Source: Meiothermus sp. Pnk-1
GTDB lineage: Bacteria; Deinococcota; Deinococci; Deinococcales; Thermaceae
Assembly (NCBI RefSeq): GCF_003226535.1
Contig: NZ_QKOB01000002.1
Coordinates: forward strand, 124,001 to 188,000
Direction: 5' to 3'
DNA: 64,000 nt
Below, one piece after another: positions 34,056-36,727 of the stretch (positions within the stretch are counted from its first letter, which is position 1; every line of letters starts with the position of its first letter). Below the pieces are notes generated by a model, which did no database searches, was not told the origin of the DNA, and saw only the letters and a list, made by a program, of their open reading frames with translations. The position numbers and the translations under genes were made by a program.

Positions 34056-35578
<1,523 letters not shown>

Positions 35579-35582
<4 letters not shown>

Positions 35583-35607
35583 CTTTTAGGGGCTTGGCGT
35601 GTAAGGT
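35579..35607 (+). promoter_or_regulatory. promoter for the asd leader
   Basis: TTGACT (35579-35584) overlapping the glyS stop, 17-base spacer, TAAGGT (35602-35607). The predicted start of transcription (35614-35616) coincides with the leader-peptide ATG at 35616. Confidence 0.6.
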
Positions 35608-35615
35608 CGAAGTCA

Positions 35616-35642
35616 ATGGTTTGGTATACCACTACTGGCTAG
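35616..35642 (+). CDS. asd leader peptide MVWYTTTG
   Basis: ATG GTT TGG TAT ACC ACT ACT GGC TAG: an eight-residue peptide with three consecutive threonine codons, directly before two hairpins and asd. It lacks a ribosome site but sits eight bases after a -10 box, so it would be translated from a leaderless mRNA. It is the sensor of a threonine attenuator (inference from codon content and position). Confidence 0.65.
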
Positions 35643-35695
35643 GCGACGGCTCCCCCGAGCCGTCGCCCTCACCTGCCTATCCAGGCGGGTTTTTT
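35642..35695 (+). terminator. asd attenuator: competing hairpins and terminator
   Basis: Hairpin A is a perfect 9-bp stem, GGCGACGGC (35642-35650) with GCCGTCGCC (35659-35667). The terminator is CCTGCC (35672-35677) with GGCGGG (35684-35689), loop TATCCA, then six T. TCGCC (35663-35667) can instead pair with GGCGG (35684-35688), so a ribosome stalled on the Thr codons would free it as an antiterminator. Confidence 0.6.
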
Positions 35696-35710
35696 GTTGA
35701 GGAGGAGCAG

Positions 35711-36727
35711 ATGAAAATCGCCATCGTAGGTGCAACCGGTGCGGTAGGGCAAGAGCTGTTGAGGGTGCTCGAGCAACGCAACTTTCCGCTTTCGGAGCTG
35801 AGGCTTTACGCCTCGGCGCGCTCCGCTGGGAAGACCCTGAGCTTTCGCGGCGAAGAGTACCCGGTGGAAGCCCTCCCCGAGGGTCCTTTGCCGGTGGATA
35901 TCGTGCTGGCTAGCGCTGGAGGTAGCCTCTCCAAGCAATACGCCTCTATCTGGGCTAGGCAGTCCGTCGTAATCGACAACTCTTCGGCTTTTCGCTACGA
36001 GCCTTGGGTTCCGCTGGTGGTGCCAGAGATCAACGCCGAAGCGATTCGGGGGCATAAAAACCTCATCGCCAACCCTAACTGCACCACCGCGATCCTGCTG
36101 ATGGCTCTTTATCCGCTCCATAAGGCCTTCAAGGCCAAGCGGGTCATCGTGAGTACTTATCAGTCCTCGAGTGGGGCGGGAGCCAGCGGGATGCAGGAAC
36201 TGCTAGAAGGAACGCGCGACTTCCTGGCGGGGAAGCCGCTTCAGAGCCGAACTTTTGCCCACCCCTTGCCGTTTAACGTCATCCCTCACATCGACGCTTT
36301 CCAGGACAACGGCTACACCAAAGAGGAGATGAAAGTGTTGTGGGAAAGCCAGAAGATCATGGGAGACAACACGGTGAAGCTTTCCTGCACAGCGGTGCGG
36401 GTCCCTACCTTGCGGGTCCACTCGGAAGCGGTGACGGCGGAGTTTGAACGCCCGATTACCCCGGAGGCTGCCCGCGAGGTGCTACGTCAGGCGCCTGGGG
36501 TGGATTTGGTGGACGACCCGGCCAACAAGCAGTATCCCTTGCCGCTTAGGGCGAGCGGCAAATACAACGTTGAAGTAGGCCGGATTCGCAAAAACCTGGT
36601 TTTTGATAACGGGCTAGATTTCTTTGTGGCGGGAGATCAGTTGCTCAAGGGGGCGGCCCTCAACGCGGTACAGATCGCCGAACTCCTCGTCGAGATGGGG
36701 GAAGTTCGCTCCGCGGTGGCCTCCTAA
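35711..36727 (+). CDS. asd: aspartate-semialdehyde dehydrogenase
   Basis: 338 residues. NADP fold [20 protein letters not shown], catalytic Cys in NPNCTTAI, and [15 protein letters not shown] as in the family. It makes aspartate semialdehyde for Thr, Met and Ile; Thermus makes lysine by the aminoadipate route, so Thr-centred control makes sense if that holds here. Start ATG 35711 has GAGGAGGAG upstream; the frame to 35579 covers the leader. Confidence 0.95.

Follow-up and report, generated by a model that had tools for sequence, protein, structure and literature searches.

A predicted leaderless threonine attenuator that overlaps a probable repressor site upstream of asd in Allomeiothermus and its relatives

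What does the short interval between glyS and asd contain, and how might it control asd? We addressed this question in a window of 64,000 nucleotides (the whole stretch of DNA analysed; contig 2, positions 124001–188000) from a 3.5-Mb genome that is Allomeiothermus-like and not Thermus. The genome contains lysW, and dapB is absent from it; lysine is therefore made by the aminoadipate route, asd is not required for lysine, and the gene serves threonine, methionine and isoleucine. The initial annotation had invoked this metabolic logic for Thermus to argue that threonine sensing makes sense. The logic holds, but the genus does not: the element is missing before asd in all 27 Thermus genomes, whether judged from the asd upstream regions or with a covariance model. 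Comparative analysis indicates that asd is very probably controlled by a threonine-sensing attenuator, with the following features in window coordinates.

34056..35582, + strand: glyS (glycine–tRNA ligase), the upstream gene, whose stop codon overlaps the −35 hexamer
35579..35584, + strand: −35 element TTGACT, overlapping the glyS stop TGA at 35580–35582
35602..35607, + strand: −10 element TAAGGT (TANNNT), with a 17-nt spacer to the −35 element
35616..35642, + strand: predicted leaderless leader ORF MVWYTTTG, stop TAG at 35640–35642; ORF conserved in relatives
35628..35636, + strand: three tandem Thr control codons, ACC ACT ACT
35620..35632, no strand assigned: predicted GntR/FCD-type operator TTTGGTATACCAC with palindromic core TGGTATACCA, within the leader ORF
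35642..35667, + strand: hairpin P1, 11 bp (35642–35652 with 35657–35667), beginning at the last base of the stop codon
35671..35695, + strand: intrinsic terminator, consisting of hairpin P2 (35671–35690) and a U tract (T6, 35690–35695)
35699..35707, + strand: asd Shine-Dalgarno sequence GAGGAGGAG, read from the sequence
35711..36727, + strand: asd, aspartate-semialdehyde dehydrogenase (TIGR01296 and NF011456, both above cut-off)

The start of asd is taken as 35711, a longer listed ORF with a TTG start being a mechanical ORF call. The promoter overlapping the glyS stop codon is located where the initial annotation had placed it, as are the short leader and the terminator that follows the first hairpin; that hairpin itself is present with 11 bp, where nine had been described. 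The leader reads ATG GTT TGG TAT ACC ACT ACT GGC TAG, and its ATG lies 8 nt past the −10 element. RNA from 35616 to 35700 folds with −39.2 kcal/mol, compared with −25.5 ± 3.2 for shuffled sequences (z = −4.2).

Relatives were sought among 111 genomes of the class, a set that a phylum-wide search did not enlarge and that does not include Deinococcaceae, and comparison of their leaders provides the conservation, codons, structures, promoter spacing and operator sharing described here. The same cassette precedes 27 asd genes, in Allomeiothermus, Meiothermus, Calidithermus and two sister families, and one ilvA gene. Its elements follow a fixed order: a TTGACN promoter, a leader start 6–9 nt after the −10 element, an ORF of 7–14 codons, a stop codon at the foot of P1, P1 (11 bp) and then P2, with a P1–P2 gap of 0–3 nt in 26 of 26 leaders. 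Within the Thermaceae, all 22 genomes of Allomeiothermus, Calidithermus and Meiothermus (g1–g3) have the asd cassette, and it also occurs in three genomes of sister family f3 and two of sister family f2. It was not seen in the asd upstream regions of g5, f4 and f5 genomes.

The covariance model recovered exactly the asd copies and a single ilvA copy, in f2 genome G002; this ilvA copy excepted, the other weak matches scored below the asd copies and were rejected as plain terminators. A search of Rfam gave no match over the gathering score and just two at chance level. We also used a scanner requiring an ORF, a stop codon at P1, P1, a gap of at most 6 nt, P2 and a T run. Among the loci examined it picks out the asd leaders together with the ilvA copy, and it finds no copy on either strand of 0.79 Mb of sister genome G023. 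Promoter-adjacent ORFs of 7–15 codons are themselves rare, with four in the same 0.79 Mb, none of which has three Thr codons in a row. Compensatory changes are found at 7 of the 11 P1 pairs. Over P1 and P2 together, 37 cells are changed on both sides, compared with 6.5 in shuffles; each of five covariation measures stays below the observed value in all 500 shuffles, and the signal is lost when the partners are slid. The cassette is more than a chance assembly, since it recurs before asd in relatives, P1 covaries and the scan of the sister genome finds no other.

The spacing of the promoter bears on how the leader is translated. A TANNNT hexamer ends 6–9 nt ahead of the leader start codon in 28 of 28 leaders, and TTGAC(N) lies 17–18 nt further upstream in 27 of them (TTGATC in the remaining one). 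A −10 motif about 6–7 bp upstream of leaderless ORFs is a common pattern in this phylum (PMC12340547), and the spacing observed here indicates that the leader ORF is very likely leaderless, as the initial annotation had suggested. Two Calidithermus asd leaders (L004, L005) show an additional feature at this position, in which GTGAGC at the start is complementary to GCTCGC a few codons downstream. The resulting 6-bp hairpin holds the leaderless GTG start codon and might set the initiation rate.

The control codons are the most constant part of the peptides. Three to five tandem Thr codons are present in all 25 asd leaders of g1–g3 and f3, including those whose peptides otherwise diverge, which bears out the earlier proposal of Thr control codons and transcription attenuation of asd. 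The initial annotation had staked its case on conservation of these codons and of the hairpins in relatives, and both are conserved. The peptide is MVWYTTT(T)(T)x in 20 genomes (Allomeiothermus and Meiothermus), VSLARTTTT in Calidithermus, and VSQRFNNTTTI, VNVWYTTTTTI and MQFWNTTTTTK in f3; the f2 asd leaders read VKFDSSTSNTTIF and MKLASHICNIMITP. The ilvA leader of G002 (L183:1010-1110, G002:C193) encodes VKIQSSTPQIIIF, followed by a stop codon, with three tandem Ile codons, and its promoter, TTGACC-17-TACACT, ends 7 nt before the GTG start; this copy is an isoleucine version of the attenuator. What the leaders share is confined to the control codons, whose identity fits the pathway: Thr, or Ile/Met/Thr, before asd and Ile before ilvA. 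The arrangement is that of a leader-peptide attenuator, with a short ORF containing tandem end-product codons before a biosynthetic gene and an intrinsic terminator (P2 plus T6) between the ORF and the structural gene.

The N-terminal part of the peptide appears to be conserved for a different reason, one that the initial annotation had missed. A 17-nt segment, ATGGTTTGGTATACCAC, is identical in 20 of 20 Allomeiothermus and Meiothermus genomes. The codons of asd itself are seldom so constant: at its invariant residues, just 1 of 86 four-fold and 2 of 57 two-fold codons are identical. This segment contains the palindrome TGGTATACCA, and the MVWY(T) stretch contains TTTGGTATACCA, a palindrome that the promoters of leuC and a GntR/FCD regulator also carry. 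MVWY(T) is fixed at the nucleotide level, probably because its codons hold this predicted operator. With both strands counted, and palindromic sites therefore counted twice, TTTGGTATACCA occurs 107 times in the 22 g1–g3 genomes but once in 28 Thermus and g5 genomes; a reversed control sequence occurs four times.

Sites for the palindrome lie between the −35 and −10 elements of leuC and upstream of metH, of the GntR/FCD regulator gene and of a gene named from its sequence as DAHP synthase/chorismate mutase. For leuC of the source genome, TTTGGTATACCAAA (G000:C6:116660-116673; L076) fills the spacer between −35 TTGACG and the −10 element; the site is found at the same place in nearly all g1–g3 genomes and is predicted to bind a repressor. 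The regulator is encoded by 20 of 22 g1–g3 genomes, four of four f3 genomes and one of 28 Thermus and g5 genomes, and TGGTATACCA, with at most one mismatch, precedes 25 of 28 copies of its gene, including the Thermus copy. The operator is thus shared with the regulator's own promoter, and the regulator is found in the same genomes. Three of the regulator-family genes are located as follows.

C18:68638-69294 (L079): GntR/FCD regulator gene of the source genome, palindrome in its own promoter
G030:C1:2870093-2870775 (L306): GntR/FCD regulator gene, palindrome in its own promoter
C2:23603-24226: second GntR/FCD paralogue of the source genome, without the palindrome

Leader codons 2–6 are therefore likely to contain a GntR/FCD-type operator, and the regulator would repress asd from it. 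With leuC, asd, DAHP synthase/chorismate mutase and metH as its predicted targets, the protein may be an amino-acid regulator. In Calidithermus the palindrome is absent from the asd leaders, which read VSLAR in its place. The conservation and sharing of the palindrome suggest that the N-terminus of the leader is dictated by the operator and the Thr run by attenuation, and the overlap of operator and ORF would explain an otherwise odd, codon-perfect peptide. A role for MVWY as an arrest peptide is unnecessary: the sequence is absent from Calidithermus and some f3 species, and the operator accounts for it. The palindrome is also found at the start of a purF-like glutamine amidotransferase ORF, in codons 6–12 (YPGIPN; L309, L316, L318), where it may be either a coding coincidence or an operator.

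Ribosome effects on the hairpins were modelled by masking the RNA up to 12 nt beyond the first base of the A-site codon and folding the remainder. In 28 of 28 leaders, this thermodynamic model gives P1 a probability of 0.75–1.0 for a ribosome at the first control codon and of 0.00 once the stop codon occupies the A site; for a ribosome at the last control codon the range is 0.00–0.60. Formation of P1 in the model thus depends on whether the ribosome is at the control codons or at the stop. The distances are consistent with this behavior: P1 is always separated from the first control codon by 12 nt or more, and its foot is never more than 3 nt from the stop codon. P2 remains favored for nearly all ribosome positions at both 37 and 60 °C (exceptions L014 and L021), and the two hairpins share no strand for which they compete and are compatible as secondary structures.

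On balance, the explanation that we favor as a whole is a ribosome-mediated threonine attenuator of asd in which P1 opposes P2, together with an operator in the leader. Transcription would start on or beside the A of the leader ATG, and a 70S ribosome would load at the leaderless 5′ end and read the eight codons. When Thr-tRNA is sufficient, the ribosome would reach the stop codon and its front would cover the 5′ arm of P1; P1 could not form, and P2 with the U tract would terminate transcription, a step that is strongly supported. When threonine is short, the ribosome would halt at the Thr codons and leave P1 free to fold, which is strongly supported as geometry. P1, which lies 0–3 nt before P2, would then hinder closing of P2 at the RNA exit channel, and RNA polymerase would read into asd. 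The DNA of codons 2–6 would also serve as the operator of the GntR/FCD repressor acting on leuC and its own gene, as the shared palindrome supports.

The weakest step is the action of P1 as an antiterminator, which follows from attenuation logic (P1 forms on stalling and is prevented on completion) and from its adjacency to P2; we regard this step as tentative, at somewhat less than even likelihood. P1 would also form in the absence of a ribosome, giving read-through by default if P1 opposes P2. Still more tentative, though a real possibility, is the full minimal form, an attenuator without strand exchange in which a ribosome at the stop codon of a leaderless eight-codon ORF melts a P1 that otherwise sterically blocks P2, and in which the first codons are a repressor operator. 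If this is correct, one 27-nt stretch would be peptide code, amino-acid sensor and DNA-binding site, in an attenuator near the smallest conceivable (no 5′ UTR, 7–9 codons, two hairpins). The lack of the textbook antiterminator would make it testable whether a hairpin antiterminates merely by touching the terminator.

The adjacency of P1 and P2 can be read in the opposite sense, with P1 stacking on P2 as part of a compound terminator and aiding termination; a ribosome slowed on the last Thr codons would then melt the foot of P1 and lower termination. The gap of 0–3 nt and the P1 probability of 0.00–0.60 with the ribosome on the last control codon fit such a model, and tandem hairpins can raise termination, as reported for M. 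smegmatis gyrA (cited in PMC8355165). However, starvation usually stalls a ribosome on the first Thr codon, a position at which P1 stays intact, so that under this reading asd would be off when threonine is lacking; a ribosome at the stop fully melts P1, which would give antitermination in plenty. We consider this alternative rather unlikely.

The order of synthesis points to another role for P1, which is the first structure made. In E. coli trp, 1:2 hairpins are pause hairpins, and P1 might likewise only hold RNA polymerase until the leaderless ribosome loads, with termination decided on another basis. This is unlikely: we found no second RNA switch to make the decision, and the exact register of the stop codon with P1 and the short P1–P2 gap would be left unexplained.

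A classical attenuator, as the initial annotation had envisaged, would have the freed 3′ arm of P1 pair with the 3′ arm of the terminator and so prevent P2. The complementary segments TCGCC (35663–35667) and GGCGG (35684–35688) are present as described, and most leaders have a 5-bp match of this kind (X′:Y′), worth −5.8 to −10.5 kcal/mol. One lineage (L012) also shows a paired change, column 65 from C to U (weakening P1 to G–U) with column 89 A in GGCAGG, in which the pairing is kept; a single lineage is not enough. In almost all leaders, however, P2 is stronger (about −11 to −14 kcal/mol where the alignment spans the whole stem), and at 37 and 60 °C hardly any ribosome position dissolves it. 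The pairing forms only with the ribosome late or at the stop, which corresponds to threonine excess and is the wrong logic. Nor is the 5′ arm of the terminator captured before its partner is made. For E. coli thrL, trpL, leuL, hisL, pheL and ilvL, with the ribosome on the control codons and the 3′ arm not yet made, the antiterminator captures 70–88% of the terminator 5′ arm. The same test gives mostly 0.0–0.5 for the asd leaders, mostly near zero at the first Thr codon, with a mean of per-leader maxima of 0.2–0.3 (the value for L021, where the terminator is mis-assigned, was set aside). The test that finds a canonical 2:3 antiterminator in six E. coli leaders thus finds none in the asd leaders. 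As a switch, TCGCC/GGCGG was rejected on energy, order of synthesis and logic, and the classical arrangement is quite improbable. A further candidate, pairing of GGCTAGGC (35637–35644) with GCCTATCC (35675–35682), captures about half of the terminator 5′ arm in the window leader without a ribosome; it was rejected as not conserved (0.01–0.07 in L003).

That the interval senses no threonine, and holds an ordinary glyS terminator and a repressor site with an accidental ORF, is very improbable: glyS in the window is indeed followed by a terminator, and as a predicted operator the palindrome is convincing, but most Meiothermus have a gene other than glyS upstream and still keep the cassette, Calidithermus has the Thr run, stop codon and hairpins without the operator, and there is no room for a promoter between the terminator and asd.

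Our search of open-access literature turned up no attenuator described for either Meiothermus or asd. The predicted threonine attenuator of asd is of a known kind, but its form is new and minimal: it would be leaderless, has no canonical antiterminator and overlaps a probable repressor site. Like thrL and the trp, his, leu, phe and ilv leaders of E. coli, it has a short ORF rich in end-product codons and would couple ribosome position to an intrinsic terminator before a biosynthetic gene. The E. coli leaders start with a Shine-Dalgarno sequence, whereas the asd leader is predicted to be leaderless and encodes a peptide of 7–14 amino acids; the E. coli leaders rely on a 2:3 antiterminator for capture of the terminator 5′ arm (0.7–0.88), and the asd leaders have no 2:3 helix. 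The asd leaders also differ in having control codons upstream of P1 and the stop codon at its foot and, if P1 opposes P2, in reading through by default without a ribosome, unlike E. coli trp. The element also resembles the leader peptide attenuators of Corynebacterium glutamicum ilvBNC, trp and leuA, whose start codons lie at or 1 nt from the transcription start (PMC11857589; PMC3890552). In ilvBNC the antiterminator and terminator hairpins adjoin, like P1 and P2 (PMC11857589; PMC3890552), but share a GCC that switches between them, whereas P1 and P2 share no base. The predicted operator resembles the autoregulated operators of FadR/FCD-type GntR proteins, where the regulator's own promoter holds a palindrome whose core is GTATAC; the family consensus is NyGTM-N(0-1)-KACNy (PMC4494728). 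Unlike those operators, the asd site is inside the leader ORF, downstream of the predicted transcription start.
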